Below are positions 10,401 to 41,603 of a DNA stretch of 64,000 bases, piece after piece. Below the pieces are notes generated by a model, which was not told where the DNA came from, made no database searches, and saw only the letters and a program-made list of their open reading frames with translations. The position numbers and the translations under genes were made by a program. How positions within the stretch are numbered: position 1 is the first letter of the stretch; the number at the start of each line of letters is the position of its first letter. This DNA comes from Sycon ciliatum (lineage: Eukaryota > Porifera > Calcarea > Leucosolenida > Sycettidae): positions 14,594,231 through 14,658,230 of the forward strand of contig NC_088655.1 in NCBI RefSeq assembly GCF_964019385.1, given 5' to 3'.

Positions 10401-10461
10401 GCGTCGTACTAGTACGACGCACATTAGTTGCATGCCCCACGACCGTCGTACTAGTACGACG
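10401..10461. promoter_or_regulatory. Paired perfect palindromes at the left end of piggyBac
   Basis: A 20-bp perfect palindrome (10401-10420) built on GTCGTACTAGTACGAC recurs as an 18-bp palindrome at 10444-10461, with 23 bp between them. They sit just inside the left terminal repeat and upstream of the transposase start. Subterminal repeats of piggyBac elements can bind transposase, so these are candidate binding sites; equally they could be promoter sites. No matching copy is seen at the right end, where only a GCCCCACG motif is shared. Confidence 0.6.
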
Positions 10462-10648
10462 CTGTAGAGCGAAGCTGCCTATCGTGATCGTGGGGTCCGT
10501 ATCGAGTCCCAGTGGCTCTGTCGTGGACCGCTGGCTGTTCGCGGGCTGCTGGGGGCTGCCTGGAACCGGCACGTGATTCGAGGCGGGAAAAATCGAACGA
10601 AAGGAGACGCACGGGGAATAGTTTCAGGCGAGAACATTTTGGTTGAAA

Positions 10649-11018
10649 ATGCTGCGCCGCGCGAGAGGAAGAACTGTGGACGAAGCGCTCCACGAGCTGT
10701 TTCTGAGTTCAGACAGCGATGTGGAGCCGTCAGTGAGTAGCGACAGCGACGAGGAGGGTCTATGGACGCCAGCAAGGGCCAGAGTTCAGAACGAAACTGC
10801 GCCTGATGTGAGTGGCGGAGCAAGCGCCAGTGTCGATGAGTACGTCGCGGAGCACGCGGACATCGATGTTGCGAATGAAGCGCAGCCGGCGGACGTCCGT
10901 GACAGCAGTAGCAGCAGTAGTACTAGTGGCACGGAGAGCGACGATGATGAACAGGCGTCCGAGAGGTCGCATGTCCACATCCAGGAGCAGCTTGCCGCAG
11001 GAGACGATGGGAGCGAAG
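10649..11018 (+). CDS. piggyBac transposase, exon 1 (acidic N-terminal region)
   Basis: Exon 1 starts at the first ATG of the frame (10649) and encodes about 123 residues rich in S, D and E, with runs such as SSDSDVEPSVSSDSDEE. This is typical of the disordered acidic N-terminus of PGBD-like transposases. It ends at a splice donor, AAG|GTAATT (GT at 11019-11020), leaving one base of the last codon. The 298-bp intron ends in TATTAG at 11316, and exon 2 continues in the correct phase. An upstream in-frame TTG at 10643 is not a plausible eukaryotic start. The spliced protein is about 671 residues. Confidence 0.85.
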
Positions 11019-11316
11019 GTAATTATCTTTTCAATAGTATTTATTTGTTCGTGTGAATTTGAGTACGCTGTGTTTGCACTTTGAGCTGAGTAAAACTATT
11101 ATACGTGCGTTTGTACCTTTGTTGAAAGTAGTCTTACTGTAATATTCCTGGCCATCGTTCAAGATCTGTTTGGCGTTATGCATAGCGTAACTGGAGAATT
11201 TTCAAACAAAATGTTGCCTAAATTCCAGAGTATTTGAGACGTACATCAGCCTTCCTACACTGTAGGGCATCATGTGGCCTGATATTTCCTACATTATTCG
11301 TGTTGTGATGTATTAG

Positions 11317-12962
11317 GGCAATGGAAGATGGAAGAAAACCAGCCCTTGCAAGACTCGTTCACTGCCCAGCCCGGTATCAAGGTGCCAGTGCCAGAAAATG
11401 CTGAGCCATATCATTATTTTTGCCTGTTTTTTACTTTACAATTTTGGCAATTGCTCTGCACTGAGACCAATCGATTTGCCCAGCAATATCTAAATGCACA
11501 CCGTGACACACTCCCAGCTCGTAGCAGATTTAGGAAATGGGTAGACGTTAGCGTACAAGAAATGAAAGTGTTCTTTGCTCTATTTTTGCTGATGGGATTT
11601 ATTTGGAAGCCAGAAATCGATCTCTATTGGAACAGGAACCCTCTGATTTTCACCCCTTTATTCCCCGCCTCGATGAAGCGCGACCGATGGATGTGTATTG
11701 CAAGTTTTCTGCACTTTGCAAACAATGAAGACGAGACGGCTAGAACCGACAAGCTTAGGAAAATTCGGCCGTTGATTACATTTTTCCAGGATAAATTTCA
11801 GACCGTGTACATTCCGTATAAACATATCTCTATTGATGAAGAATTAGTGCCATGGAAGGGTAGACTAGATTTTAGGCAGTTTATACCCTCGAAACGAGCA
11901 AGATTTGGTGTCAAGATATATGCTCTGTGTGAGTCTAGTGGTTATATGTCTAACTTTTTTGTTTATGTTGGCCGAGATGATCATGCCTATCAGCCTGGCT
12001 TAGTAGAGAAAGTCGGCAAATCTGGTGCCGTAGTTGTCCATTTATTAGATCCATTATTTTTAGACAAAGGCTACAACGTATACATAGATAACTTTTATTC
12101 TAGTATTGAGCTGGCTGAATACTTGGAGACCAGGAAGACCGGAGTGTGTGGAACAATTAGAAAGAATAGGCGTGGCCTTCCAAAGCGGTTGGTGAACCTC
12201 AAGTTGAAGAAACGCGGATCGTTTGCATATCGTACAATGGGCAGTAAATTATTTGTAAAACTATCGGACACCAAAGAAGTATATTTTCTCACCAATTTGT
12301 TCAAGCCTAATGTTATTGCAACGAATAAACGCGACCGCACCAGGAAACGGGTTCACAAACTCAACCTTGTTCACCAATACAATCAGTACATGGGCGGTGT
12401 GGATCGCAATGATGCTCTTCTGTCGTACTACAGTGCATTGAGAAAATCCATGAAGTGGTACAAAAAAATAGGTGCACATTTTATCGAAGAAGCATTATTG
12501 AATTCATATATATTATATAAAAAGTCCAAGAGTATGCCACACCATGAATATGTTATATCTGTATTATCTGCATTGCTTGCGGATGGCACGGGTCCCGCCG
12601 CTGCTGATGATGTTGCTGTTGCCAACCCTGCTCCTGCGGATGCTGCTGGCCCTGTACCTACCACACCAGTTGTCCCTGCTGCTGCTGCCGCTGCTACTGC
12701 CACACCTGCTACTCCTGCCACTCCTGCCACTGCTCGTGGCCTAGTTGTGTCCTCCAGGCTTGGTGGGCGCAAGGGTCACTACCCCGCACCCGTACCTGCC
12801 TCTTGCGGCAAGCCTGAGGGCAAGTCGCAGCGCCGGTGTGTCGTATGCTCCCACAATGGGGTTAGAAAAATGGTCACAATCTGCTGCCTGGACTGCGTGG
12901 ACATGCCTGGCCTATGTGCCACTCCATGTTTCAGAATTTATCACACATGCGAGAAGTTTTAA
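11317..12962 (+). CDS. piggyBac transposase, exon 2 (catalytic and zinc-binding regions)
   Basis: This exon encodes the RNase H-like DDD transposase that cuts and pastes the element at TTAA. The three catalytic aspartates are visible in spliced numbering: D297 in HISIDEELVPWKGR, D381 in YIDNFYSS and D486 in GGVDRNDALLSYYS. Their spacing of 84 and 105 residues is close to the family pattern. The C-terminus has an alanine/proline-rich linker and then a cysteine-rich domain (CVVCSHNGVR, TICCLDC, CFRIYHTC), the piggyBac zinc finger that contacts the ends. The frame is open throughout and stops at TAA 12960-12962; AATAAA follows at 13109. It could be a live transposase or a host-domesticated copy, but the intact terminal repeats favour a mobile element. 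Confidence 0.95.
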
Positions 12963-13290
12963 TTTTTCATTTATTTCTGTCAAAATCTTGAGATTTCGGG
13001 TTTTTTCAATTACTCCCTTTCCGTGTACATATCCCTCTAAATCCTGTAAATATCATTGTTTTCATCGTTTCTGAACCTCATAGGCCTGTGTGATCAGGAC
13101 AGAAGTCAATAAACTGAATTTTCAAAAATCTCAATTTTGCCCAATTTTGACTGCGTGGGGCAGTGTCAAATGCATGCGCGCTAAAGAGGTTAACAGCAGT
13201 AATTAACTTTTAGCTCCGTCGGTTGTTTTGAAGGGTGAGGTGACGACTTCCCGTGGCGGGCAGTAGAACAATGCTGTGGTGGTATAGCGG

Positions 13291-14126
13291 CCGATGCCGG
13301 TAGTAGCGTAGCGCTGATCAACCCATCCCCGATGCCGGTAGTAGCGTTGCGCTGATCAACCCATCCCCGATGCCGGTAGTAGCGTAGCGCTGATCAACCC
13401 ATCCCCGATGCCGGTAGTAGCGTAGCGCTGATCAACCCATCCCCGATGCCGGTAGTAGTAGCGTAGTGCTGATCAACCCATCCCCGATGCCGGTAGTAGC
13501 GTAGCGCTGATCAACCCATCCCCGATGCCGGTAGTAGCGTAGCGCTGATCAACCCATCCCCGATGCCGGTAGGAGCGTAGCGCTGATCAACCCATCCCCG
13601 ATGCCGGTAGTAGCGTAGCGCTGATCAACCCATCCCCGATGCCGGTAGTAGCGTTGCGCAGATCAACCCATCCCCGATGCCGGTAGTAGCGTAGCGCTGA
13701 TCAACCCATCCCCGATGCCGGTAGTAGCGTAGCGCTGATCAACCCATCCCCGATGCCGGTAGTAGCGTAGCGCTGATCAACCCATCCCCGATGCCGGTAG
13801 TAGCGTTGCGCAGATCAACCCATCCCCGATGCCGGTAGTAGCGTAGCGCTGATCAACCCATCCCCGATGCCGGTAGTAGCGTAGCGCTGATCAACCCATC
13901 CCCAATGCCGGTAGTAGCGTAGCGCTGATCAACCCATCCTCGATGCCGGTAGTAGCGTAGCACTGATCAACCCATCCCCGATGCCGGTAGTAGCGTAGCG
14001 CTGATCAACCCATCCCCGATGCCGGTAGTAGCGTAGCGCTGATAAACCCATCCCCGATGCTGGTAGTAGCGTAGCGCTGATCAACCCATCCCCGATGCCG
14101 GTAGTAGTAGCGTAGCGCTGATCAAC
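13291..14126 (+). repeat. 38-bp minisatellite array B (about 22 units)
   Basis: Same 38-bp unit as array A, here more homogeneous. A TAG-insertion variant (GTAGTAGTAGCG) occurs near 13455 and 14103, and a TTGCGCAG variant occurs at 13650 and 13805, 152 bp (four units) apart. This shows local higher-order duplication. Confidence 0.95.
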
Positions 14127-14832
14127 GGCAACGGCATGAACGGCTGCTGGTTGCACTTGGTCTGTGTTCTAGCCGGGGCGCGGGCGCTGCTGTGCCGACA
14201 GAGACATAGAAAGTGCGTTAGCCCGGCCAAGGCCCGCACCTGTACCGCGTTGTGGGTTGACAAGATTCGACATGTTCAGATGGTGTGGACGGTACTGTGA
14301 TATAGACGATGACAGACTCGATCCAGAACTACGAACGAGATCAGCGCACAAACGCAACACTGCAAAAAAAATAGAACGGGGTCACCAATGTAGGGTCCTA
14401 GCCCTAGCACAACTCTTAAAACGCACACAAATGGCGTAAATCGAGAGAGTTGTATTATTACTGTAATATTGACAAAGCAATGAAAGAGAGATAGAAAGGC
14501 AACTGCCTTCCATGAAACCAAACTATCTACTGGCCTAAAGCTCTAGGTTGAGAATGTCTTGGCCAGTAAGGAAAAGGGTGTACATGTGTAGTAATGACAT
14601 AGTACAGTGACAGTGTGTATATGTCCTATATACAGATACGCTACGGTATAAATGCCTGGCGAAATACTAGGATGCATGATGGGATATATGCGTACAATCT
14701 GGAATCTGAACCAGAAGTAGCGTACACATTATTATTCCGGGAAATGGCCATAAAAATCAAAGTCACCGCTTACGGAAAACCCAGGAGTGAAAACGGAAAA
14801 GTTACAGGTATGGGAACTGCTAAAGTCACCAC
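14127..14832. other. Unique spacer between composite repeat copies B and C
   Basis: About 700 bp unrelated to the composite repeat. It lies between the last 38-bp unit of array B and the resumed leader of copy C. No convincing ORF or RNA gene was seen. Confidence 0.5.
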
Positions 14833-15189
14833 AAAGTCACACGAGTAGGGCAAGTACACATGTGCAAAACACAAAATGACATGCATGGATCATTAACAGC
14901 AGTACTTAACTTTTAGCTCCATCGGTTGTTTTGAAGCGTGAGGTGACGACTTCCCGTGGCGGGCAGTAGAACAATGCTGTGGTGGTATAGCGGCCGATGC
15001 CGGTAGTGGCGTAGCGCTGATCAACCCATCCCCGATGCCGGTAGTAGCGTAGCGCTGATCAACCCATCCCGGTGCCGGTAGTAGCGTAGCGCTGATCAAC
15101 CCATCCCGGTGCCGGTAGTAGATTAGCTCTGATCAACCCATCCCCGATGCCGGTAGTAGATTTGCGCTGATCAACCCATCCCCGATGCA
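14833..15189 (+). repeat. Composite repeat, copy C (truncated), with 5-unit array
   Basis: Starts inside the leader (AAAGTCACACGAGTAG), keeps the TTAA empty site that piggyBac used in copy B (near 14893), then about five 38-bp units from 14993. The last unit passes directly into the leader of copy D. Confidence 0.8.
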
Positions 15190-16054
15190 GAACTTCACAT
15201 CACATGGCATGGTTCAATAAGTTAAACTGGAAAAAAAGTATGAAAAATACAAAGTGACCGCAAGACAGTTGAATCCAAAGCGGGGTTGCATATAACCCTG
15301 TGTCTATCATGCACAGGGCACAAATGAAGTTGATGAGTTTTGTCACGTGATGTGAAGTTCTCCCTAGGTTAGGCAGGCAGGAGGGGGGGGGGGGGGGGCA
15401 AGAACACTACTGAAAGCCGTGGGCAAGAAAATGAAGCGTTCAATATCGTTTTCTACATATTTACCTGGATTAAATTTGAGGTGGAAGTGCTTCTTTGGAT
15501 GACTCCACCCCCGGTATGGAGCGGCGTCTGATGTCGATGGCAAAGATTGCGGAGAGTGGATGGTGTTGCCTGAAGGAGATGAACAGGAATACAAAATGAA
15601 TGACTGGCAAATGTTTCCAAAGGAAAGTTTACCAGACTGCAGGTCATTGAAACACATAATTATCAAGGTTGACAATGAGACTGATATGTGAAACAGGAAT
15701 TGTGTCTGCATTCATTGCATGTGACAGTGTAGGAGTGACGTGAAGGTAGCAAACACAAAGGGATAAAGAAAAAACGTGAAATAATTACACAGCTGAAAGT
15801 TTACTGCAATTGGAATTGATTACTTCGGCTCAGAATTCATCCGTATTGTGTCAATCACCCACCCACCAGTCCAATATTCCCACTCACAATGAAGAAGTCA
15901 CATGAGTAGTGCAAGTACACATGTGCAAAACACAAAAGGACATGCATGGATCATTAACAGCAGTACTTAACTTTTAGCTCCATCGGTTGGGTTGAAACGC
16001 GAGGTGACGACTTCCAGTGGCAGGCAGTAGAACCGTGCTGTGGTGGTATAGCGG

Positions 16055-16965
16055 CCGATGCCGGTAGTAGCATAGCGCTGATCAACCCATCCCCGATGCC
16101 GGTAGTAGTGTAGCGCTGATCAACCCATCCCCGATGCCGGTAGTAGCGTAGCGCTGATCAACCCATCCCCGATGCCGGTAGTAGCGTAGCGCTGATCAAC
16201 CCATCCCCAATGCCGGTAGAAGCGTAGCGCTGATCAACCCATCCCCGATGCCGGTAGTAGCGTAGCGCTGATCAACCCATCCCCGATGCCGGTAGTAGCG
16301 TTGCGCTGATCAACCCATCCCCGATGCCGGTAGTAGGGTAGCGCTGATCAACCCATCCCCGATGCCGGTAGTAGCGTAGCGCTGGTCAACCCATCCCCGA
16401 TGCCGGTAGTAGCGTAGCGCTGATCAACCCATCCCCGATGCCGGTAGTAGCGTAGCGCTGATCAACCCATCCCCGATGCCGGTAGTAGCGAAGCGCTGAT
16501 CAACCCATCCCCGATGCCGGTAGTAGCGTAGCGCTGATCAACCCATCCCCGATGCCGGTAGTAGCGTAGCGCTTGATCAACCCATCCCCGATGCCGGTAG
16601 TAGCGTAGCGCTGATCAACCCCATTCCCGATGCCGGTAGTAGCGGAGCGATGATCAACCCATCCTCGATGCCGGTATTAGTGTAGCGCTGATCAACCCAT
16701 CCCCGATGCCGGTAGTAGCGTAGCGCTGATCAACCCATCCCCGATGCCGGCAGTAGTGTAGCGCTGATCAACCCATCCCCGATGCTGGTAGTAGCGTAGC
16801 GCTGATCAACCCATCCCCCGATGCCGGTAGTAGCGTAGCGCTGATCAATCCATCCCCGGTGCCGGCAGTAGCGGAGCGCTGATCAACCCATCCCCGATGC
16901 CGTTCGTCGCGTAGCGCTGACCAACCCATCCCCGATGCCGGTCGTCGCGTAGCGCTGATCAACCA
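16055..16965 (+). repeat. 38-bp minisatellite array D (about 24 units)
   Basis: Same 38-bp unit as arrays A to C. The last three units are more diverged (GTTCGTCGCG and GTCGTCGCG in place of GTAGTAGCG), as expected for the edge of an array that is homogenised in its middle. Confidence 0.95.
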
Positions 16966-18829
16966 CCGATGACTGTGATAGTGAAGCAGTGGCTGATCTA
17001 CCCGAGCTGATACTAGCATAGAGCTGGTTGGCTGGCTGATGTGAGTAGTAGCGTAGAGCCGGTTGACTGGCTGTTATCGGCGGTAGCATACAGCTGGTTG
17101 ACCACGCTATACTGATAGTAGAGTACGTCAGGCGAAATAGCACGTCATAGTACATTTGAAATCAGTGGGATTCCCCGGAAGATGATGACGTCCACTAATT
17201 TAGTATCTGTGCACACGAATCTGCTGTGTGTGTGACTCTGTGTGTCAGCTATGATATCATCCCCTGTGGTTTCATGCCTAGCATGTACGTCTGAACCATC
17301 CTGCAAAGTTTGAATTACTTAGGTTGAGCGATCGCTCCGCGAAACATACTTTTTGAAATTCTCTTCATAGTGTGTCTTCCACCATTGAAATTTCGGATTT
17401 CTTGCTGAGAGGGGTGGCTTGCAACCTCGATATGGCTTGTTCCAGGCATGCTTTGGAGCCATCTCCTGTTGAAGTAGTGGCGGGGATCTTCCCTGCAACT
17501 GCTTGTCGCTAGCTGTGAGGGGTAGGAATTCATCATGACACAATTGGTTAGTAGCATACACCCATGCCTGCTAGAGCAGCCTGCTAGAGCCACTGTCACA
17601 TGGGGAACCTACCTATGACAACAGTGCATAACCCCACTAAGACTATAGTTACCATGGCGATATCGCTGGTTGCCTCGGTGATAGCGTAGCGCTGGGTGTA
17701 GAAGAGTTGACCTACAGGGTTTACCTGACCCTGATCTTAAGGGGGATGTGATATGTGTAGTATTGTGAGAATGGGATGAGTATAAGGATATCTGAGAAAA
17801 TAGTGAAATTGTGAAGGGAAAATGAGAAATTTGATGAATGACAAACTATGAATAGAGTTCTGATGGCATAATATAGTCATTGTTCTTTGATGTTTGGGCA
17901 GCAGCAGTTTCATCCAGCCGCTTCACCAAGTCCAGGGCTGGGAATTGTTTGAGAGAAGCACTGACTGTCCACAGTGTGGTGGAATCTGTGTGAATGATGG
18001 GAAAGTGTAATGGAGGGGTCAGTAGAATACAATGCGGTGCACAAGATACAGCAATCATCCTCTGTGCTAGCACAAGTGACTCACTGTTACAGGAGAAATT
18101 CAGGTTGTGTCTACATCACTAACCATTTAAAATAAAGAGAGGAGATATTTACTAGGGATACAGTTCTGATGGTATGCAATGAAAACAGTCATAATTATGT
18201 TAACTCTTCTATACCTTCATCAGCCTGTTTTTGACCTTTTCCTTTGACTGATTCGGGCAAGAGCTGCATTTTTACTCCCCTTCTGGGCGTTTCAACTCAC
18301 TCACAGACGCCTTCTGGGGATCAACGATATCATAATACACGAGCACTCCAACTCTTTACATTCAATGGTCACATCAAATTTGGTGTTTTCACACATTTCA
18401 CTAGCAATGATGTACTTACGCCAGCGCAAAAGGAGCTTTGTGTTCCCATAAGAGATCAGCAAAAGAACATGGAGTCACCAGCAAACTGCCTTTCCACCAC
18501 TCTCCTCCCCCCCCCCCCCCCCGGTTAGTTTGTGCCCAGGGTTGGAACGGTACACCTGTCATTTCCTATTTTCTTAGCAACTACTCAGCAGCAATACTGG
18601 ATTGCTACTAAGTAGTGCCAACACCCCCTCAAGAATAATTCCCAATCAATGCTGGATGGTGCAGCCTGCATGATAAGACAAGAAGACACACAGTCATGCG
18701 CACACCCACAAGCACCAGGAAAACACAAACAAATACCTGGACATCAGCAGGTGCATGACCTGTAAAATTTGTCATAATATGTTCACTGTGGGGAAAGGCA
18801 ATCCAGTGTGTGGCAAGAATGAGGCATGG

Positions 18830-28781: not shown

Positions 28782-28797
28782 ATAGTATTAGTACATA
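28782..28797. repeat. 16-bp target-site duplication, left copy
   Basis: ATAGTATTAGTACATA occurs here and again at 36985-37000, exactly bracketing the hammerhead-bearing repeat and everything nested in it. The last four bases of the element may overlap ATAG, so the true duplication is 12-16 bp. This length is typical of target-primed retroposition. Confidence 0.85.
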
Positions 28798-28803
28798 CCC
28801 AAT

Positions 28804-28851
28804 GCTGTAGACAGCAAGCTGTTTCGGCCATAAAGGCCTCATCAGTACAGC
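28804..28851 (-). ncRNA. Type I hammerhead ribozyme, copy 1
   Basis: Read on the minus strand all invariant parts are present in order: stem I GCTGTA, core CTGATGA, stem II GGCC-TTTAT-GGCC, core GAAA, stem III CAGC-TT-GCTG, then TC, and the stem I partner TACAGC. The A15.1-U16.1 pair is possible and the cleavage site would be after C17 (GTC), between positions 28810 and 28809. Every stem pairs perfectly. Self-cleavage is predicted from the fold, not shown. Confidence 0.93.
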
Positions 28852-29360
28852 TACGAGCTAAATAGGACGAGCTACCAGCCATGGTGCAAAGGAGGCACCA
28901 CAGACATTAAGGTAGCTCGTCGCTCTAGCGCCAGAGTGCTCAAACTACAAAATGTAGCGAGCATTGCGCGATGCAGCAGCACTAGAGCAGCCTACTGAGA
29001 GTGCTCAACAAGGCGAAAGCCGAGGAGCGTGATACCCAATGCTGTAGACCAGGGAGTCGTAAAAGCCCGGGAGAGGACACGGCACACATTCCCAGAAAAC
29101 ATCTTTGCCTCGCGCTGCCGGGGAACGCTGCCAGGGAACGGTGTTGCGAGGCAAGGAAATTATTATTTTCGAAAATTGTGATGTCTTCTTGAAATACTAA
29201 TTGGGACATTCTCCGATTTCTCTTAGAGCACGGAGACGATTGCTCCGTCGAGTCTTCTGATCTCTATTTTCATCCTCATCTTCCAGCTGCCTCACTCATT
29301 CTCTCTCAGTTTATCGAAGTTAATTTATTCTGAGGCGATGGAAATGCAAGACAAATCCCT

Positions 29361-29397
<37 letters not shown>

Positions 29398-29519
29398 GAG
29401 AAACCACGAACCTCGAGAACAGAATACTGCATGGTAGAGGTGGTTGCAGACGCAACTGTGGTGGTGAAAACTGGAGCATAATTGTACTTCACTTTTATTT
29501 GAGTTGGGGTGAACGAAAT

Positions 29520-30020
29520 GAGATTTGTGGAAAATGACGCCACTTCCCGTGTTAGCCGCTGGTCGTATCATACAGCCCATATTCCATTGCAGGTGATGGG
29601 CCAACGTTCGTGTTGAGATCCGCTGAGTTTCCTCGTACTCGTGGAGTTGAATTTGTGGCAGAAATTGCACTGAATTGCAGTCAAATGGTTGTGAATGAAA
29701 CGAGATTTGTGGAAAATGACGCCACTTCCCGTGTTAGCCGCTGGTCGTAGCATACAGCCCATATTCCATTGCAGGTGATGGGCCAACGTTCGTGTTGAGA
29801 TCCGCTGAGTTTCCTCGTACTCGTGGAGTTGAATTTGTGGCAGAAATTGCACTGAATTGCAGTCAAATGGTTGTGAATGAAACGAGATTTGTGGAAAATG
29901 ACGCCACTTCCCGTGTTAACCACTGGTCGTATCATACAGCCCATATTCCATTGCAGGTGATGGGCGAAAGTTCTTGTGGAGATCCGCTGAGCTTCCTCGG
30001 CGTACTCGTGGATTTATGAA
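29520..30020 (-). repeat. Tandem 180-bp repeat in E1 (three copies)
   Basis: Three head-to-tail units sharing GAGTACGAGGAA, ACCTGCAATGGAATATGGGC and CTAACACGGGAAGTGG on the minus strand. They are mirrored by three units at 36036-36545 in E2. Confidence 0.9.
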
Positions 30021-30508
30021 TTTGTGTCAGAAATTGCAGTCGAGTGGACTTCTGTGCGTGTGTTGTGAGTAAATCGCGACGGCTCCCTTCCTTCAGCATC
30101 GTCAAAACGCAACATAGAGCATTATTACGCACTCGTTCCATGATTCATGATAATGCCTGGATTCTTTTAAAAACAATCAATGTGTGTTCCCTATCTATCT
30201 ACATTGTACATGGTTGCAGGTCGTTATTTATAATGGTGTACTAGCTGTGCTAGTACTTGTTAGCAACAATCCGAACTAGCGCACACACTGCACTGCATTG
30301 CTTTGTACTGCATTCAAGACTGACGTCATGCGCTTTGTTTTGCTGCGTAATCACAAATGGCACCAGCCCATTTTGCGGAAAAGAAAAACAAATCTTGCTT
30401 GCCCTGTTGTGCTCTTCCAGACAACGGATCGTGCTTCAGCAGTGTTTCTTTTCCTTTCGTAGCTTTGCTGCCAGCCCGAGTGTCACCTCGACACTGTATT
30501 TCTTCAGT

Positions 30509-31646
30509 ATGTCTGACCTAACTGTCGACACTGTCAAGGCAATGCCTTGCCAAGCCCCCGCGGCGAGCCTTCTCAGCGCGGCTTGAATCCGAAAGGAAAC
30601 TTAGTAAAAGTATTTTACAGGACCGTTTGCTGGCACAACTAGCCCTTGGTAGTGAGGTCTGCTCCGGCCAGGAGAACCAGCAACATGACAGTGCGGACAC
30701 GGCTCGCGAGCCCAGAAGCCCGACTTGCACCAATGCCTCCTCCGCCAGCTCAGGTGACGCGGGCTCAACGGATCTCTGCGCTCCCGTAGATCTACGTGAC
30801 GAGGTGTAGTCGGCTTTGTCGGCCGCCATTTTATTATTATCGGAGAGCATTGTGCCGCTCCTCACCCAAGGCAATGCGGCTGCTGCCGCCACTACGCCAG
30901 GCCAAGCCCTTGTAACCCACCCGATCAGCCACCTGCACCAGCTGTGCCCAAGGCTGTGCAAGAACGTATCTTGCGAGGGGAGTTCGTAGATTTTTCAAGT
31001 TGGTTGCCTGAAATTCTTGCACACTTCCGGCCCAACATTCCGGCTGGCGCACAGCCCGAATAACGATAGCCAGCTAAATATCGTTGAGTCGGATGACCGT
31101 ACGCGAAGCAGGTGCGTCGCAAGGTTCACGATAATTATACATGTAACTACCCGGCTCGAGGCATGGACCACATACATGTCTGTTATCACGGCTGCTGCCC
31201 TACACCGCACTGCTGAACTGATTGCGTACCAGCAGTTGATCCTGACTGCTAACCGCCAGTTCTTCCCAAGCGCGTGGCTAGAGTACGACCGCCAGATGCG
31301 GCTGCTCGTGGCCCAGTAACCAGGCACGAAGAGGTTGGACACCATCGACGTGAACCTATGGCAGATAGCTGTCACAGGCCATGCACACCCAAAATGCGCT
31401 CAATGTAAGACGGCCCATCCAGGGGCGGTTTGTGTCCTTTTCGTCCCCAAGCCAGCAGCATTTACCTCCAGTGGTCGCAACCATACCAGCGACAGCCAAG
31501 AAATCTGCCGCAACTTCAATGGAGGTCGCTGTTCTTCGTCGTCGTGCCGCTTCTCCCACACCTGCAGCCAGTGTGGCAAGGACCACCCATGCATCATGTG
31601 CAACCAGCAGCAGCGCGGAGCCAATCGGCCACCCCGCCGCTCCTAG
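30509..31646 (+). pseudogene. Gag-like region of the YR retrotransposon
   Basis: An ATG at 30509 opens MSDLTVDTVKAMPC but stops within 30 codons. The reading continues in other frames (SERKLSKSILQDRLLAQLAL near 30590; AYQQLILTANRQFFPSAWLE near 31220). The last part (31335-31646) holds a CCCH-type zinc knuckle, CRNFNGGRCSSSSCRFSHTC followed by SQCGKDHPCIMC, as in Gag proteins of DIRS-order elements. Gag coats the RNA genome. Several frameshifts make this copy non-functional. Confidence 0.7.
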
Positions 31647-31779
31647 CAGAATGGCTACTGAATAGCTTGACTCGGTACGTAGCTTCTTTCCTATACACTC
31701 TGCAGACACCACACTGCTAGCTGACCACTTTGCCCGCCTGTTACGTAACCACTCATATCAATAATGCGTTGCGTATGTT

Positions 31780-32660
31780 CTCCATGGGCTGCGCCGTGGC
31801 TTTACTCTTGGATCTGCCGGCCAACACGACATTTCGGTTTTCTCTAATAATCTACCCTTGGCTTTCACTCACTCGGCATTTATATCTGAGCAATTAGCTG
31901 CTTCCTGCGCCCGCAGCGAGACCACAGGCCCATTTCCGTCACCTCCATTTCAGTTCATGCGCCGCTCTGGTATTGGTGCCATCCCCAAAAAGAACGGCAA
32001 GCTGCGAATGATCCACCATCTGTCTAGTCCGGAAGGCACCGGCGCGAACGACAGCATTCCTGCCGAGCCGCTCTCTCTGCACTACGCGCGCATTGACAAT
32101 GCGATCAACATCATCATGTCATGCCCACAGCCTGTGTATTTGTCCAAGCTCGATGTACGCAGTGCATTTCGGCAGATCCCAGTCCGCCGTCAGGACTTCG
32201 CTGGGAAGGCTCCTACTACTACGAGCGCTTTCTGCCTTTCGGCCTCCGCTCCAGCCCAGCCGTCTTTGACTCAGTAGCCACAGCAGTCAACTGGATCATG
32301 CAGCACGAGTTTGCTATAGATCACCGGCTTCATTACCTCGATGACTTTCTCGATATCTCCACTGGTTTGGCTGCAGCCAACCAGCAACTCATCACCCCCC
32401 TCCGGGCATTCACGTATCTCGGCACTCCTCTTTGCTCCATCCCAGCTCGAGGGCCATCACCATCATTGACCTTGGTATTTTCCTAGACTGCGGCTACCAG
32501 AGGACAAGCTGTCCGAGATCCGTGCGCCACTCATGGCTACTATCAGCGAGCGCAGCATCGGCCAGCGTCAACTCGAGTCCCTCCTGGGGAAGCTCACTTT
32601 TGCTGCCCGAGTCATCGTTCCTGGACACACATTCATGCGTGAACTATGATCAGCGTGCCC
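31780..32660 (+). pseudogene. Reverse transcriptase and RNase H region of the YR retrotransposon
   Basis: The frame near 31788 opens with GLRRGFTLGSAGQHD and NLPLAFTHSAFI. It continues with IPKKNGKLRMIHHLSSPEG and VYLSKLDVRSAFRQIPV, which are RT motifs of the DIRS type. A frameshift near 32210 leads to YERFLPFGLRSSPAVF and the catalytic box YLDDFL (near 32335). Remnants of the RT thumb and connection follow (TISERSIGQRQLESLLGKLTF). The sequence then jumps to the recombinase, so most of RNase H is deleted. Confidence 0.8.
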
Positions 32661-32676
32661 TGAACTGTATCTGTGT

Positions 32677-33105
32677 ATGCGAGTGCGGTGCATAAAGCCC
32701 ACCTTGAGAATGGGTTTGCCGGCGTTTACTAGTGACATTGGCCCGTCTGTACCGCCGTACTGCCCGGTCCGTGCCATTGTTAGCTACCCATTTGTCACTC
32801 GTCGCGAGGGACCAGAGCAACTCTTGTTCGTACTCTCGAACAGACAGCAGCTGACCAGGCAGTCATTCACAGTAACAGTATGGTCTCTTGTCGCTGCGGC
32901 CGGTGTACCATCCCAGTCGAACTACTCCGGGCATTCGGTCTACATTGGTGCAGCCACCACCGCTGCTATGGCTAGTGCCCCGACTCCTTCTTCCGAGTGG
33001 CAGGTCAGTGGAAAGAGCGATGCGTGTCTATGCTACACCCGGACTACAACAAGCGCTAAGCGCCAGCTATCGTCCCGGCTTGCTGCCGTGCCATGGATGC
33101 CATGA
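32677..33105 (+). pseudogene. Tyrosine recombinase C-terminal region of the YR retrotransposon
   Basis: Recognisable blocks are YCPVRAIVSY, QLTRQSFTVTVWSLVAAAGV, YSGHSVYIGAATTAA and CYTRTT, matching the core of DIRS-type recombinases. The usual HSFRIGA has become HSVYIGA, so the second catalytic arginine is lost. The likely nucleophile tyrosine is in CYTRT. The N-terminal half is missing. This enzyme would have integrated the circular DNA copy; this copy cannot. Confidence 0.75.
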
Positions 33106-33225
33106 TCCCCAACTCGGGTGAGTAATGAGCTACTGAACTCTAGCTGCGCAATGCTTGCCTGTGCTGACATAAATTGACCCTTGCTGTGCGTCAATAGTGC
33201 TTAGCTAACGGAGTGCTGGTTTCAT

Positions 33226-33840
33226 GGGTCCACTCTCACAACTGGTGTTATCTAGCTATTTGCTGCGGCTCTGCCTTGCGCTATATTACATCCATTTAGC
33301 ATTGCAGCTCTACGTTGAGCTAACAGCAGCTCTACTTTGAGCTAACAGCAGCTCTACTTTGAGCTAACAGCAGCTCTACTTTGAGCTAACAGCAGCTCTA
33401 CTTTGAGCTAACCGCAGCTCTACTTTGAGCTAACAGCAGCTCTACTTTGAGCTAACCGCAGCTCTACTTTGAGCTAACCGCAGCTCTACTTTGAGCTAAC
33501 AGCAGCTCTACTTTGAGCTAACAGCAGCTCTACCTTGAGCTAACAGCAGCTCTACTTTGAGCTAACAGCAGCTCTACTTTGAGCTAACAGCAGCTCTACT
33601 TTGAGCTAACAGCAGCTCTACTTTGAGCTAACCGCAGCTCTACTTTGAGCTAACAGCAGCTCTACTTTGAGCTAACAGCAGCTCTGCTCTGAGCTAACAG
33701 CAGCTCTGCTCTGAGCTAACAGCAGCTCTGCTCTGAGCTAACTCCAGCTCTACTTTGAGCTTCAAACCAGTTGTTTCGAAACCAGCACTCCTCAATCCAA
33801 AGATGCCTCTTTGTTGACTTGTTTGTGTGAGGGATGGGGC
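33226..33840 (+). repeat. Split direct repeat B1 with a 22-bp minisatellite
   Basis: Starts GGGTCCACTCTCACAACTGG and ends GTGAGGGATGGGGC. The middle (about 33300-33760) is a tandem array of about 21 units of 22 bp, AGCAGCTCTACTTTGAGCTAAC, with C/A and TCTG variants in the same order as in B2. Confidence 0.93.
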
Positions 33841-33843
33841 TAA

Positions 33844-34064
33844 TGGTGTACTAGCTGTGCTAGTACTTGTTAGCAACAATCCGAACTAGTGCACACACTG
33901 CACTGCATTGCTTTGTACTGCATTCAAGACTGACGTCATGCGCTTTGTTTTGCTGCGTAATCACAAATGGCACCAGCCCATTTTGCGGAAAAGAAAAACA
34001 AATCTTGCTTGCCCTGTTGTGCTCTTCCAGACAACGGATCGTGCTTCAGCAGTGTTTCTTTTCC
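33844..34064 (+). repeat. Split direct repeat A2
   Basis: Direct repeat of A1 (30234-30454): TGGTGTACTAGCTGTGCTAG at the start and GCAGTGTTTCTTTTCC at the end. One visible difference (CTAGTGCAC here, CTAGCGCAC in A1). Confidence 0.93.
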
Positions 34065-34121
34065 CACCATCCCTCCCTATCCAACTTATTCACACCATCA
34101 TAATTATCGTACCCACTAATC

Positions 34122-34736
34122 GGGTCCACTCTCACAACTGGTGTTATCTAGCTATTTGCTGCGGCTCTGCCTTGCGCTATATTACATCCATTTAGCATTG
34201 CAGCTCTACGTTGAGCTAACAGCAGCTCTACTTTGAGCTAACAGCAGCTCTACTTTGAGCTAACAGCAGCTCTACTTTGAGCTAACAGCAGCTCTACTTT
34301 GAGCTAACCGCAGCTCTACTTTGAGCTAACAGCAGCTCTACTTTGAGCTAACCGCAGCTCTACTTTGAGCTAACCGCAGCTCTACTTTGAGCTAACAGCA
34401 GCTCTACTTTGAGCTAACAGCAGCTCTACCTTGAGCTAACAGCAGCTCTACTTTGAGCTAACAGCAGCTCTACTTTGAGCTAACAGCAGCTCTACTTTGA
34501 GCTAACAGCAGCTCTACTTTGAGCTAACCGCAGCTCTACTTTGAGCTAACAGCAGCTCTACTTTGAGCTAACAGCAGCTCTGCTCTGAGCTAACAGCAGC
34601 TCTGCTCTGAGCTAACAGCAGCTCTGCTCTGAGCTAACTCCAGCTCTACTTTGAGCTTCAAACCAGTTGTTTCGAAACCAGCACTCCTCAATCCAAAGAT
34701 GCCTCTTTGTTGACTTGTTTGTGTGAGGGATGGGGC
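34122..34736 (+). repeat. Split direct repeat B2 with a 22-bp minisatellite
   Basis: Same length and same order of minisatellite variants as B1 (33226-33840). It forms the right end of the retrotransposon. Confidence 0.93.
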
Positions 34737-35268
34737 TAAATCTTGATAATTTCAACACTTTTCTACTCGTATACTGAGTACGCGGTGACTTGAGCCGTTT
34801 AGGAAACGGAAGTCTTGGCGAGTGTACAAAAGGTAAACCTATCATTTGTACTTCATAACGGAATTGTGCACAAAAATGCACACACACGTTCGCGCGCACA
34901 CACACAAGCACACACACAAACACTGTACAAACACACACAAAAGTACAAGCACATGTGCACATACACACGCCTCCCCCCCCCCCCCCCCACACACACACAC
35001 TCAACTCCCCACCCCTGTACTGAGTCTGACAGACATACAATCATGTTTATCCTTCCTTCGCCACCAGTTTCGGATAATGGTGTCAACAACGAGTTGTAAA
35101 ATATTGGTATTTTAGGACTCCCTGCCCTGAAGACAAGCACAGCGCCGTGGATCGAGCAGATCCGGCCGCGCCGGCCTAGCGTGCTTCACTTTCTGGCCGA
35201 GGCAAACATCGTCCGCGTGCGCGCATCCCGTGTCCTCTCCCGGGCTTTTACGACTCCCTGCTGTAGAC

Positions 35269-36927
35269 CAGGGAGTCGTAAAAGCCCGGGAGAGGACACG
35301 GGATGCGCGCACGCGGACGATGTTTGCCTCGGCCAGAAAGTGAAGCACGCTAGGCCGGCGCGGCCGGATCTGCTCGATCCACGGCGCTGTGCTCGTCTTC
35401 AGGGCAGGGAGTCCTAAAATACCAATATTTTACAACTCGTTGTTGACACCATATCCGAAACCATGGAAACTGGTGGCGAAGGAAGCATAAACATGATTGT
35501 GTGTCTGTCTGTCAGACTCAGTACACATGGTACAGGGGGTGGGGAGTAGGGTGTGTGTGTGGAGGGGGGGGGGGGGAGGCGTGTGTATGTGCACATGTGC
35601 TTGTACTTTTGTGTGTGTTTGTACAGTGTTTGTGTGTGCGCGTGCATGCGTGTGTGCGCATTTTGTGCACAATTCCGTTATGAAGTACAAATGATAGGTT
35701 TACCTTTTGTACACTCACCAAGACTTCGGTTAGATTCACTGAGAACCTTTCTGGCCAACCTGGAGGCTGAGCCTTCCATTTCCTAAACGGCTAAAGTCAC
35801 TGCGTACTCAGTATACGAGTAGAAAAGTGTTGAAATTATCAAGATTTATAAATAACGACCTGCAACCATGTACAATGTAGATAGATAGGGAACACACATT
35901 GATTGTTTCTAAAAGAATCCAGGCAATATCATGAATCATGGAACGAGTGCGTAATAATTCTCTATGTTGCGTTTTGACGATGCTGAAGGAAGGGAGCCGT
36001 TGCGATTCACTCACAACACACGCACAGAAGTCCACTCGACTGCAATTTCAGTGCAATTTCTGACACAAATTCATAACTCCACGAGTACGAGGAAGCTCAG
36101 CGGATCTCCACAAGAACTTTCGCCCATCACCTGCAATGGAATATGGGCTGTGTGATACGACCAGCGGCTAACACGGGAAGTGGCTTCATTTTCCACAAAT
36201 CTCGTTTCATTCACAACCATTTGGCTGCAATTTCAGTGCAATTTCTGCCACAAATTCAACTCCACGAGTACGAGGAAGCTCAGCGGATCTCCACAAGAAC
36301 TTTCGCCCATCAACTGCAATGGAACATGGGCTGTATGATACGACCAGCGGCTAACACGGGAAGTGGCGTCATTTTCCACAAATCTCGTTTCATTCACAAC
36401 CACTTGACTGCAATTCAGTGCAATTCTGCCACAAATTCAACTCCACGAGTACGAGGAAGCTCAGCGGATCTCAACACGAACGTTCGCCCATCACCTGCAA
36501 TGGAATATGGGCTGTATGATACGACCAGCGGCTAACACGGGAAGTGGCGTCATTTTCCACAAATCTCATTTCGTTCACCCCAACTCAAATAAAATTGAAG
36601 TACAATTAGGGATTTATCTTGCATTTCCATCGCCTCGGAATAAATTAACTTCGATAAACTGAGAGAGAATGAGTGAAGCAGCTGGAAGAATTGAGGATGA
36701 AAATAGAGATCAGAAGACTCGACGGAGCAATCGTCTCCGTGCTCTAAGAGAAATCGGAGAATGCCCCAATTAGCATTTCAAGAAGACATCACAATTTTCG
36801 AAAATAATAATGTCCTTGCCTCGCAACACCGTTCCGGATTCCCTGGCAGCGTTCCCCGGCAGCGCGAGGCAAAGATGTTTTCTGGGAACGTGTGCCGTGT
36901 CCTCTCCCGGGCTTTTACGACTCCCTG
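35269..36927 (-). mobile_element. hAT-like non-autonomous element E2, inverted sister of E1
   Basis: Inverted copy of E1, 1659 bp, without the retrotransposon. It is flanked by CTGTAGAC on both sides (35261-35268 and 36928-36935). E1 and E2 together form a palindrome of about 1.66-kb arms whose centre is the 8-bp CTGTAGAC. Tandem 180-bp units lie at 36036-36545 and a CA/GT microsatellite with poly-G at 35545-35665. Confidence 0.85.
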
Positions 36928-36974
36928 CTGTAGACAGCAAGCTGTTTCGGCCATAAAGGCCTCATCAGTACAGC
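36927..36974 (-). ncRNA. Type I hammerhead ribozyme, copy 2
   Basis: Identical 48-nt sequence to copy 1. The hAT insertion hit stem I, but the 8-bp duplication restores CTGTAGAC, and the last base of E2 (G at 36927) happens to replace the missing G of GCTGTA. The ribozyme therefore remains complete. Cleavage is predicted after GTC, between 36933 and 36932. Confidence 0.9.
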
Positions 36975-36984
36975 TACGAGCTAA

Positions 36985-37000
36985 ATAGTATTAGTACATA
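36985..37000. repeat. 16-bp target-site duplication, right copy
   Basis: ATAGTATTAGTACATA, identical to 28782-28797. Confidence 0.85.
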
Positions 37001-37608: not shown

Positions 37609-38769
37609 ATTTGAAGTGCGCCAAGTAGGACTTTCGCTGGAAACAGAAATGAATGGGAGTGATGGGAGAATCGAGAAAGACCGCACAGTCAGTGCATGCA
37701 GTAGATCTACAGAGTCAGTGTACAGACAGTGCACACGCCTCGTCACTCGAACTGCGCGTACGAAATTGCATACTTCAAAGTGGTATGCTGGCGCAGAACA
37801 AATTCGCTCGTAGAGGAAGACGAAAGCTTCTCACCGTCTTGTAATTTCACATGGCTAGTAGTTTTTCGACGCTGAAGACGATGGAATAGTCCGCGACGCT
37901 GCGACCCGACCATAACAACCCTAAATTCATACCCTGAAAAAGCGCTGAGCGCAGAGCTCCTAAATTTTGTCGTATGGAAACGGGACTTCGGGTCTCAAGG
38001 GCACGAACATCTCCTCTCTCAGATAAAGCAATTCACTCGATGCGATATGACCTGGCCACGCCGAAAAGCACTGTGATGTCGGATTCTCCCATCGGAAGTA
38101 TAGAAACTTGTTTCCAAAAAATCAGCGTCTGGGTGCGAGTGCTAGCTTCATCTCTAGCTCTGGACACACCCATTCCCATAGCGCTTCACATCCGAACCAG
38201 TTACAACGTTTTCGGCACTTGGCCATCGTCAGGTAATATTATAATGAATACCGTGGAAGCCACATAAGAGCAGTATATATACGCAGAGTGTAGAGCCAAA
38301 AAAAGATGCGACAACTAGCACATCACCATCACGGAGAAGAAGCAGCAGAAGGTAGCGCGCCGTTGCATTGTGCTCTGTGAAGTGAGGGCGCATGCCATGG
38401 CGGTACGCAGAGTGTAGCACCCAAAAAAGGATGCGAGTTATGTCACCTCTATGCAGAGGGGCCTAGGGGGGGGGGGAGAAGGTGTAACTGTGCACATAAT
38501 CATTGTATTTGTATTTTTTTGTATTTTATTATATTAAAAGGATTTCCCAAAGGCTTTGGGCCAGCCTGTCGAGGGGATCTCCTGCAAGAAGAATGAAAAT
38601 TTAATGACAACTTTATGTAGAGGGAGCAGTTAATCGAGGATAGGCTAAGGAAATAGATCGAGACATCACGGAGAACAAGCAGCAGAACTGAAGACAGCGC
38701 GCCATTGTGCTCTGCGAAGTGAGGGCCCAATCTGACGCAGGAGGAGCGGATGGAGCTGAGCGACTTCGC

Positions 38770-39655
38770 ACAGACCAAGAAACCATCATCAAACCATCGG
38801 ATAAAAGTTGTTTAAAAAACTCGTTGCTATGAGACAGGAGCTGTATTTGCAGAAAGTAGAAGACATAATTATGATCGAACATGACCATGTATGAGAAAGA
38901 TTTGACAATAGAGATTTGACAATAGAGTCCTACGAGACCAAGACGCGAGAAGTAATACTGTCAGAGTGCAAGAACATGGATTCAAAACTCCTAAAGTCAA
39001 TCCTACCAAACAGTACGAAGTTCCCCGAGTGGTACGGTCTTCCAAAGGACCATAAACAGAACTTACCATGGCGACCCGTGGAAGCAGCGTGCGACAGCCC
39101 AACGACTGGAGTATCTATTGTATTGGAGCGCATCCTACAGCAGCTCATTCAATTTGTCCCGGCCCACCGGGCTAACACGACAGAAGCAATAACCCACATC
39201 TGTGACGCATGTCCGGGATTGAACGCCCCCGATGGTACCATTGTTATGTCCATGGATGTAGTGGGGTTATATCCGAGCATATCTATTCGGGAGGGCGTTC
39301 CGGCAGTGGTGGATATGCTGCAGCAGTATTCCCAGCGGATCGACATGATTGTTTGGGCGGAGTGTGAGCGTGGTACGGAATCTGCTGCTGTTTGTTCTCA
39401 GCCACAACTATTTCAGATTCGGCCATCAGATCTATCACCAAGTGGACGGGGTTGCAATGGGTAACAATCTTGCACCCCCATTTGCGATTCTATTCATGCG
39501 TACGGTTGAAGCCAGGCTTCTGCAGGATCCTCCGTTAGTACCGCTCCTCTACAAACGCTACATCGACGATATCCTGATGCTATGGACCCACGGCAGAGAG
39601 AGCTTGATGCGGTTTGTGCAGAAAGTGAAGCGAGGATTCATGAGCAATTAAGATT
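38770..39655 (+). pseudogene. Penelope-like reverse transcriptase remnant
   Basis: Frame-shifted remnants run in the usual order: ETIIKPSDKS (38777), RQELYLQKVEDIIMIEHDHV, then SKLLKSILPNSTKFPEWYGLPKDHK, DGTIVMSMDVVGLYPSI, FRFGHQIYHQVDGVAMGNNL and the catalytic LLYKRYIDDILMLW (near 39550). VDGVAMGNNLAPPFA and YIDDI are diagnostic of the Penelope RT, which is related to telomerase. At least two frameshifts (near 38810 and 39360-39410) and one stop break it. Confidence 0.85.
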
Positions 39656-39854
39656 GAACAATTACCCAGAGAATCATTGAAGAGGCACACACTGCCTCCA
39701 CAAAGCCAAAGCATCGTCGCCGTGCAAACACATGCTGCGCATTTCTAAAGCTTCCATATAAGTCAGACAAAGTACGTCAAGCAGTCAATCAGAACGTATA
39801 AAATTCCGGTTTTGAGTCGTAGATGAGCACACTGGTAGCCTGAGGCGTACATTG

Positions 39855-40199
39855 TGTCGCTCGGCCCTCGTTCCTCCTCTATGCGTCAAGGCTGCAAATC
39901 CGCCACAACCGAAAAAGAGAGGTCGCCCAAAGGGGCCGTGTATCTTGTGTATATCCGGGGGACAGGATGTATGCAGAAAAGTGTTATTATATCAGCTGAA
40001 GTGCAAAGAATGTCCGGAACAATATGTTGGTGAGACTGGCCGCTTTCTGGAAACTCGCCTGGAAGAACATAATGGTGAGGCAAGACGACAGGAACTCGAC
40101 AAGCCATGGGGACAACATTTTCGTACCACTCACCCTGGATCCAAGCTCATGAGTGCATTGGCGCATGGGCCTCCGTGCTCCCCTCCTGTAATGTGCTAG
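39855..40199 (+). pseudogene. GIY-YIG endonuclease domain of the Penelope-like element
   Basis: After a gap in which the RT thumb is lost, the reading gives KKRGRPKGPCILC, LLYQLKCKECPEQYVGETGR and FLETRLEEHNGEARR. This is the C-terminal GIY-YIG nuclease, with Y in LLYQL and QYVGETGR as the two signature halves and the R and E of the active site visible. It nicks the target DNA for retroposition. The frame ends at TAG 40197-40199, near the usual end. Confidence 0.8.
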
Positions 40200-40240
40200 A
40201 ATTAACACCATAATTATTTGGCATGTACCCTCACTTCGCA

Positions 40241-41196
40241 GAGCACAATGGTTGTTGTTGTTGTTTCTTTATTTTACTTCACCATATGAACAGGCAAGAC
40301 TGCCTTCTCACCGGGGCTATTGGCCCACGGCTCTCACAATATGATGAAAATGTTTAAAATGTGTATGAAGAAGAAAGGAACGGAAAAGAAGATGAAATGA
40401 AAGGAAAGAAAACAGTAGGTATTAATTTTATGAAGGGGTATGAAATGGGTATTATCATAGTTGATGGGAGAAGTATGATATCCAATATTCTTGTTCTATA
40501 GACTATTTAGTACGGGCATTTCATGAGAGTCATGCATGGGCAAGGCAGGATTTGGACTAGGATAGAGGACAAGAACATACTTGATGAGCATCTGTTCAGG
40601 CAGAATCTGTGAAGAAGACATAGTAGGCACAACATCGGAGAGCTAGTTGAGGAGGGAGATAAGGTCATAGCCAGACAGCAATGCTTGAAACGTGTGGCGT
40701 AGATCTACGTCGCAAGCGCGAATATCAGCAGGGAGAGAGTTCCATGTGGTACTGCCAACAAAGGCGATAGAGCTACGGCCTGAGGGACCAGGTAGGAACG
40801 GCACTCTGAGCAGCTGGCTGACCTGACCACGCGTGACACAACTTCTGTCCACATCCGTGGCAATGAGGGAGTAGTAGGATGTGAACAGTGAGCTGGCTCT
40901 GCCATGAAGGCAGCGGAAGACGAAGAGAAGCAGACGTTGCACGTACAGCTGGTGGAGCTGAGGCATTGATAGTCTGGCAAATAGGGGAGCAGTGGGGGTC
41001 CTTCTGGGGAGTTGGAAGATGGCTCGTATGCCAGACTTAGCAATGCGTAGCAGTCGATGTAGCAGCAGTTTGGATAGAGCGGGAAAGAAACAGTTTGAGG
41101 CATAGCAGAGAACAGACTGGATCATACTCATGTACCAGCCCGGCGGGCATTGAGTGAAAGGCACCGTCCATGGCGCCAGAGCTGCCCGATTGTAGT
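40241..41196 (-). mobile_element. 5'-truncated LINE inserted in the Penelope terminal repeat
   Basis: The minus strand ends in an AAC-repeat tail (plus strand GTTGTTGTTGTTG at 40248-40262). It lies inside the terminal repeat, between GAGCACAATG and CTTCTTCTCCGTG, which are near-adjacent in the uninterrupted copies (38330-38380, 41335-41385). A tail of short repeats and truncation at the 5' end are typical of CR1/L2/Jockey-like elements. Confidence 0.75.
40643..41140 (-). pseudogene. C-terminal end of a non-LTR retrotransposon ORF2
   Basis: Residues LLHRLLRIAKSGIRAIFQLP, MPQLHQLYVQRLLLFVFRCL and TTWNSLPADIRACDVDLRHT show the classic C-terminal region downstream of the RT in CR1/Jockey-like LINEs (the WNSLP box and the preceding tRGQ). 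The RT itself is missing because of 5' truncation. The frame ends at a natural stop at 40643, so the fragment is young enough to keep its frame. Confidence 0.75.
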
Positions 41197-41603
41197 ATGG
41201 CACGCTCTTCTTCTCCGTGGTGTGCACAGTTGCACCTTCTCTCCCCCCTCTACATAGAGGTGACATAACTCGCATCCCCCCTTTTTTTGGCGCTACACTC
41301 TGCGTAACGCCATGGCACGCGCCCTCACTTCACAGAGCACAATGCAATGGCGCGCTACCTTCAGCTGCTTCTTCTCCGTGATGTGCTAGTTGCACCTTAT
41401 CTCTCTCTGTCCCCCCCCCCTTCTGCATACTAGGTGACAAAATTCGCATCTTTTTTTGGCGCTACACTCTGCGTATATATACTGCTCTTGTGTGGCTTCC
41501 ACGGTATTCATTGTTATTGCCTGACGATGGCCACGTGCCGAAACGTTGTAAAAATAACGGAACTGGTTCGGATGTGCAGCGCTATGGGAATGGGTGTGTC
41601 CAC

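Follow-up and report, generated by a model that had tools for sequence, protein, structure and literature searches.

A dispersed hammerhead retrozyme in the calcareous sponge Sycon ciliatum and its possible link to the priming module of a Penelope-like family

We analysed a stretch of 64,000 nucleotides (nt) from the calcareous sponge Sycon ciliatum (NC_088655.1, positions 14,594,231 to 14,658,230; hereafter the window), which carries on its minus strand an insertion of a small non-coding element with hammerhead ribozymes, here named RZ1. The feature is probably one RZ1 insertion that was copied via a priming module of the type found in the Penelope-like family PLE-B1 and that was later split by two transposons. 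A wider proposal, to which we give an even chance, is that RZ1 and a second family, RZ2, carry the RNA priming module of PLE-B1 and are copied by its enzyme round a ribozyme-made circle. They would then form a retrozyme-helper pair, the Penelope counterpart of the pairs of short and long interspersed nuclear elements (SINEs and LINEs). A first-pass annotation of the window had read the feature as a retrozyme, and this is supported by further copies, by tandem units and by insertion-site repeats far above control. By its sequence features, RZ1 is a member of the established metazoan-type retrozymes without long terminal repeats (LTRs).

The two hammerheads on the minus strand are identical, 48 nt long and in direct orientation, with the downstream copy at 28804-28851 and the upstream copy at 36927-36974. 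As read from the sequence, stem I consists of GCTGTA and TACAGC, with the core CTGATGA and predicted cleavage after GTC; stem II consists of GGCC and GGCC with the loop TTTAT and is followed by GAAA, and stem III (ACAG and CTGT) is closed by CTTG. A type I descriptor applied to the 64 kb found these two places only and nothing in shuffled sequences (5 with the loose form, 20 with the strict form), which confirms the hammerhead pair reported earlier. The predicted cleavage sites, 28810/28809 and 36933/36932, are also those obtained in the first-pass annotation, and the same holds for the cut-to-cut distance of 237 nt, which is reached once two inserts and two copies of the octamer CTGTAGAC are excluded. 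At its gathering threshold Rfam gave no hammerhead in the window. Permissive Rfam searches gave a sub-threshold match to Hammerhead_3 (type III; 25.9 bits vs 48.5), and Hammerhead_1 was absent from their result lists. Since the Rfam score is below the cut-off, the assignment rests on the core, the pairing and the conservation.

The insertion comprises about 1.3 retrozyme units. Read in the direction of the element, it extends from the insertion-site duplication at 36986-37000 via TTTAGCTCG into the first hammerhead (36927-36974) and the unit body, and then through the second hammerhead (28804-28851) to the end GCATTGGGTA at 28796, against the duplication at 28783-28797. The upstream segment of RZ1 lies at 36928-36985 and the downstream segment at 28796-29049, both on the minus strand, and the last stem I base of the upstream hammerhead is the end of a nested transposon. 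The duplication reads TAGTATTAGTACATA on the 3' side of the retrozyme (28783-28797), and both it and its partner on the 5' side (36986-37000) extend by one more shared base, at 28782 and 36985 respectively. The bracketing 16-bp direct repeat noticed before, ATAGTATTAGTACATA, was accordingly found at 28782-28797 and 36985-37000; 15 bp of it came from an exact search and the 16th base was read off the sequence. Compared with the RZ1 majority sequence, the unit in the window has 2 differences in 237 positions.

A genome search for further copies with an intact core, suggested by the first-pass annotation, was productive. In the 538 Mb and 313 contigs searched, the RZ1 hammerhead has 775 matches at up to 3 mismatches, and the reversed pattern has none. 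The core and stems are retained in 102 of the 119 distinct hammerheads from the fetched loci and the window, a proportion biased upward since the fetched loci were the best or first-listed exact matches, in which intact copies are over-represented. For the monomers, whose clustering had also been suggested earlier, 49 full copies average 237 nt, 98.2% identity to the majority sequence and 53.6% G+C, and the tandem units measure 228-242 nt. The unit had been described as free of open reading frames (ORFs), and the repeated RZ1 unit indeed has no stop-free run of more than 54 codons. Its circular minimum free energy is -84.4 kcal/mol (z -4.2 vs 100 mononucleotide shuffles). No LTR, tRNA primer site or polypurine tract was noticed on reading RZ1, no formal search being made. 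RZ2, which was met beside RZ1, has a unit of 225 nt and different stems, and its hammerhead has 2,540 genome matches with none for the reversed control. The sequence TTGAGCACTCT occurs twice per unit in RZ1 and in RZ2. Different retrozyme and Penelope-like families crowd together within shared TA repeats, in either orientation to one another, at loci L001, L002, L005, L010, L051, L070, L083 and L087.

The way in which RZ1 moves was approached from its insertion junctions, for which 66 RZ1 arrays were aligned to the repeated unit; L060/L061 and L066/L067, which have common flanks, were counted separately. The 3' ends lie at unit positions 45-53 in 58 of the 66 arrays, 40 of these at positions 50-51. 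The ribozyme cut falls after unit position 36, and the constant 3' end, GGGTA, is mostly 13-15 nt beyond it; in the window the putative reverse-transcription start is at 28796-28800 on the minus strand. The flank and repeat counts exclude the 8 arrays whose 3' ends lie elsewhere, several of which are interrupted and one of which is truncated where its locus stops. The 5' ends are scattered over unit positions 3 to 230, and array lengths range from 56 to 1,207 nt. A readable ATTGGG was lacking in 6 of the 58 arrays, leaving 52 readable ends, of which 44 have TA next to the 3' end and 17 have TATA. The ten bases past the TA are 81% A+T, compared with 51% in the window. Direct repeats of at least 8 bp are present at both ends of 28 of the 58 arrays, while 200 rounds with re-paired flanks yielded 2.1 such arrays on average and 6 at most; microsatellite targets inflate the repeat counts, and the re-pairing control corrects for them only partly. 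Spread by retroposition, as expected in the first-pass annotation, is upheld by a fixed 3' end and by insertion-site repeats above control. Satellite DNA spread by recombination would also account for 237-bp units in tandem, but the arrays are dispersed and short, and the same fixed 3' end and repeats largely refute this explanation, which we consider very improbable.

The junctions would fit target-primed reverse transcription that starts inside a circular or multimeric RNA. Copying of a cut linear monomer from its 3' end would give inserts that end at GTC, which those of RZ1 do not, and ribozyme-cut linear RNA was rejected as the usual RZ1 template since the 5' ends are not clustered at the cut (1 of the 66 arrays begins exactly there). 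The copied stretch would range from less than one turn to about five, and both a circle and an uncut multimer may satisfy the RZ1 junctions. A template that is mainly the uncut multimeric transcript, not the circle, is a tentative alternative, to which we give somewhat less than an even chance. Every RZ1 junction fits it, and unprocessed RNA is the main in vitro substrate of the Anolis element (PMC11167929). On the other hand, the hammerheads are intact in the 102 of 119 copies mentioned above, and units have 98.7% identity within the same array (22 pairs, 10 loci) vs 96.6% between different arrays (1,154 pairs), as copying from one circle predicts, although tandem sources would give the same. 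The RZ2 pieces show a related pattern: 8 of the 23 listed end 13-14 nt past their own cut and 12 of the 23 end 10-16 nt past it, and the others are split, interrupted or truncated where the locus stops. The cut is the exact starting point of 3 of the 23, and in L017 two RZ2 ends form a palindrome, meeting no more than 2 nt from the cut. At this palindrome and at the cut-starting pieces it appears as if cut RNA had been used as template.

The link to a helper comes from PLE-B1, which was first met next to RZ1 in L006. The family has at least 67 protein matches at 82-100% identity among the matches listed, with ORFs of up to 758 amino acids (aa). It occurs in tandem copies with a period of 2,590 bp, and it has a hammerhead near its end, an optional tail, two fixed ends and divergent junction pairs that join its start sites A and B. 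Insertions of the family end at GTCTGAGTGTA (GTGTA) in L006, L017 and L086, or at the alternative end TTYTA after a 66-nt tail in L082-L085 and L087, and enter TA repeats in both cases; exact junctions of the two ends with TATATATA number 68 and 88 genome-wide, and controls gave 0. The motif TTGAGCACT lies within the PLE-B1 tail, 23 nt beyond the first of the two starts, and the distance is 24 nt in RZ1 and 23 nt in RZ2. When the segments of RZ1, RZ2 and PLE-B1 were folded separately they gave one outline, with the outer stem GCTC/GAGC and two bulged T, while the inner stem differs in sequence among the three. A MAFFT alignment of the stem-loops was poor, and the shared outline rests on the separate folds. 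In the window the stem-loop GCTC..GAGC, common to RZ2 and the PLE-B1 tail, is just past the start site at 29003-29028 (minus strand), with TTGAGCACTCT at 28998-29008; the second TTGAGCACTCT of the unit is at 28933-28943 (minus strand), and the second motif copy in RZ1 folds less clearly. The motif was chosen from RZ1 and RZ2 and searched before the PLE-B1 tails were read. In 200,000 shuffled tails it was found 55 times anywhere and never at an offset of 22-24. Three Penelope-like families (PLE-902, PLE-B1 and PLE-C) had a readable tail and were examined for it, and one was positive.

Several observations weigh against PLE-B1 as the helper. The motif is present in 5 of the 6 PLE-B1 tails read, and the tail in L017 has TTGAGGACT instead. 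PLE-B1 is a putative Penelope-like family, so called from a GIY-YIG-like motif read by eye, the hammerhead, the tandem period and the inverted tailed ends. Pfam and a profile comparison (hhalign) did not confirm the GIY-YIG-like end, and a composed probe listed mostly other reverse transcriptase (RT) families and not clearly PLE-B1. The second start site of PLE-B1, after the tail, is used by no RZ1 array in TA repeats. Divergent RZ1 pairs were absent from the fetched loci, whereas Penelope-like neighbours are mostly head-to-head (within 8 kb, 31 divergent, 2 convergent and 24 tandem among 300 listed matches). Finally, the helper comparison covered Penelope-like families. One divergent RZ1 pair, 2 kb apart, was seen by eye among 100 places listed of 775, and two divergent RZ2 pairs within 1 kb were counted among 100 places listed of 2,540. 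Since divergent RZ pairs are few compared with the Penelope-like neighbours, RZ insertion seems to prime mostly from one strand and the helper often from both.

The start sites A and B of PLE-B1 flank the stem-loop (for example in L017, about 3933-4150). Among divergent neighbouring junctions up to 5.5 kb apart, 39 of 43 pairs are A-B, 1 is A-A and 3 are B-B, and many A-B pairs form short palindromes with a spacing of about 200-225 bp. The two DNA strands of PLE-B1 seem to differ in the start site that they use. In Penelope elements the tail is described as optional on one of the inverted repeats (PMC3846280).

An explanation that we regard as unlikely is that the retrozyme is copied by a LINE-type or other Penelope-like enzyme and that the likeness to the PLE-B1 module is coincidental. 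The 13-15-bp repeats at many RZ1 insertions would suit LINEs too, and RZ1 is without the head-to-head pairs that are common in Penelope-like elements. RZ1 and PLE-B1 agree, however, in TA-repeat targets, GTA start, stem-loop outline and spacing of the nine-base motif, and a Penelope-like protein from Anolis has in vitro fixed internal starts at AT-rich DNA (PMC11167929). The module could also be shared by descent, RZ1 and RZ2 being shrunken Penelope-like elements that retained the hammerhead and the priming site, whatever copies them now. This is possible, with somewhat less than an even chance, and it is compatible with the copying by PLE-B1 proposed here, not opposed to it. The order hammerhead, start, stem-loop is identical in RZ1, RZ2 and PLE-B1, and reduced Penelope-like elements are proposed as an origin in PMC11722881. 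On the other side, the RZ hammerhead is canonical with a stem III while that of PLE-B1 is different and minimal-looking, and no similarity outside the module was noticed, no dedicated test being run.

Under the proposed pairing with PLE-B1, minus-strand transcripts would cut themselves at both hammerheads and the 237-nt RNA would be ligated into a circle. A PLE-B1-type protein would then recognise the stem-loop and nick TA-rich DNA, and copying would start at GGGTA just upstream of the stem-loop and cover anything from less than one turn to about five turns of the circle, or an equivalent stretch of an uncut multimer. The product would be joined to the other strand with a repeat that may reach about 15 bp, and in the window two inverted-repeat transposons would later have split the insertion. 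In SINE/LINE pairs the non-coding element bears the recognition end of its autonomous partner. The RZ module differs in that it is inside a circularly permuted unit and downstream of the start, and in that the partner is Penelope-like.

Plant LTR retrozymes, reportedly described by Cervera in 2016, are non-autonomous elements flanked by hammerheads, and in this they are like RZ1. They have type III hammerheads, LTRs, primer-binding sites, polypurine tracts and 4-bp duplications, as told in PMC7229834, and RZ1 does not fit them, having a type I hammerhead and longer duplications. The metazoan non-LTR retrozymes described by Cervera and de la Pena (2020, PMC7229834) have units of about 170-400 nt, type I hammerheads and, where duplications occur, ones of more than 4 bp. 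RZ1 likewise has a type I hammerhead with a short stem III, non-coding tandem units, duplications of more than 4 bp and Penelope-like elements in the same genome, and no LTR was seen on reading. A point against this placement is the G+C content, a descriptive and not a defining feature, which is below 50% in published metazoan retrozymes and 53.6% in RZ1. RZ1 adds to these elements insertion junctions that define where copying begins and indicate one Penelope-like family. LINEs or Penelope-like elements are proposed as helpers in PMC7229834 on general grounds, the Penelope-like ones because they share with retrozymes hammerheads, tandem occurrence and the same genomes, as is priming on the circle giving tandem cDNA, and the reviews PMC7761336 and PMC11722881 repeat the helper and circle-priming proposals. 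Poseidon of Anolis (PMC11167929) and Penelope of Adineta vaga (PMC3846280) have, like RZ1, a fixed internal start downstream of a hammerhead, AT-rich targets and tandem copies, and the two alternative ends with tail of PLE-B1 and PLE-902 match the Penelope-like elements reported in the same papers. RZ1 is set apart from Penelope-like elements by being non-coding, by its full hammerhead, by a start that follows the cut by only 13-15 nt and by having no head-to-head pairs in the loci read.

In the literature listed on retrozymes, hammerheads and Penelope-like elements (titles and displayed abstracts) neither a shared priming module nor a fixed internal 3' end of retrozymes was found reported, and no paper was found on hammerheads in sponges. 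What our data suggest as new is a sequence link, based on junctions, of a retrozyme to one Penelope-like family, with a defined start and a stem-loop. Through this family link, the defined start and a stem-loop open to mutation, the question of which enzyme and which RNA template serve metazoan retrozymes becomes testable at the bench. The RZ1 junctions also fit, in a genome, the internal starts seen in vitro for a Penelope-like enzyme (PMC11167929), and a shared priming module would help to settle how retrozymes move.

The window itself contains a Penelope-like element of another group at 38161-41602 (plus strand), with RT pieces at 38916-39651, GIY-YIG at 39852-40199 and inverted tails at 38161-38177 and 41586-41602. 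Its matches to RVT_1 (below the Pfam cut-off) and GIY-YIG are weak, and its inverted tails end at GGGTGTGTCCA, positions 38161 and 41602. In its closest relatives RT identity is 85-94% and ORFs reach 971 aa. In the further group PLE-902, with 70% RT identity over 92 aa to the window element, ORFs measure 902 aa and the tandem period is 2,935 bp. Five PLE-902 3' ends were read (L075-L079): two are at GTAATTCT and two at CACCGCTTC, that is, at ATTCT or CTTC, and the remaining one departs from the family at GTAATT. The ends in L080 and L081, from the window element's own family, were uninformative. PLE-C (L003, L006 and L065; RVT_1 E 2.5e-8) ends in GTA before TA repeats, and the motif was absent from its tail as read by eye. 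The element at 38.2-41.6 kb had been named as a candidate helper in the first-pass annotation, and it is a poor one, less likely than PLE-B1: its own ends and those of its PLE-902 relatives differ from the retrozyme end, which PLE-B1 matches better. The end AATGGGTGTGTCCA of the window element appears faintly similar to ATTGGGTA of the retrozyme. A looser scan of the window for minimal hammerheads also flags about 23020 (plus strand) and about 21869 (minus strand), two minimal hammerhead-like copies of CTGAGGAGTCTGGGAGGGG..GAAAC in opposite orientation, which are perhaps the ends of another Penelope-like family.

The two transposons inside the retrozyme stand in tandem and have 33-bp inverted ends. 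The first (6,211 bp, 29050-35260), with its CAGGG end and 8-bp duplication, we take to be hAT-like. The second (1,659 bp, 35269-36927) is related to it, mostly in opposite orientation. The 8-bp duplication CTGTAGAC, on hammerhead stem I, is present at all three boundaries (29042-29049, 35261-35268 and 36928-36935). The octamer takes in the cut together with the 3' strand of stem I, and the duplication therefore kept both ribozymes whole. Genome-wide there are 25 exact junctions of CTGTAGAC with the transposon end, among 368 matches to the 33-bp end at up to 2 mismatches, and by eye none beyond the two in the window was seen near RZ1 among 100 RZ1 places listed of 775. A transposon parasitic on the retrozyme is not favoured on these counts. 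Since such junctions recur genome-wide, away from the listed RZ1 places, the pattern suggests a target preference of the transposon's own. Inside the first transposon, at 31858-33105, pieces resembling a DIRS-type RT (KKNGKLRMIHHLS, YLDDF) and a tyrosine-recombinase-like end, GHSVYIGAAT, were read by eye. Elsewhere in the window, 6935-17102 holds several arrays of one 38-bp unit, with about 5 to 32 copies each.

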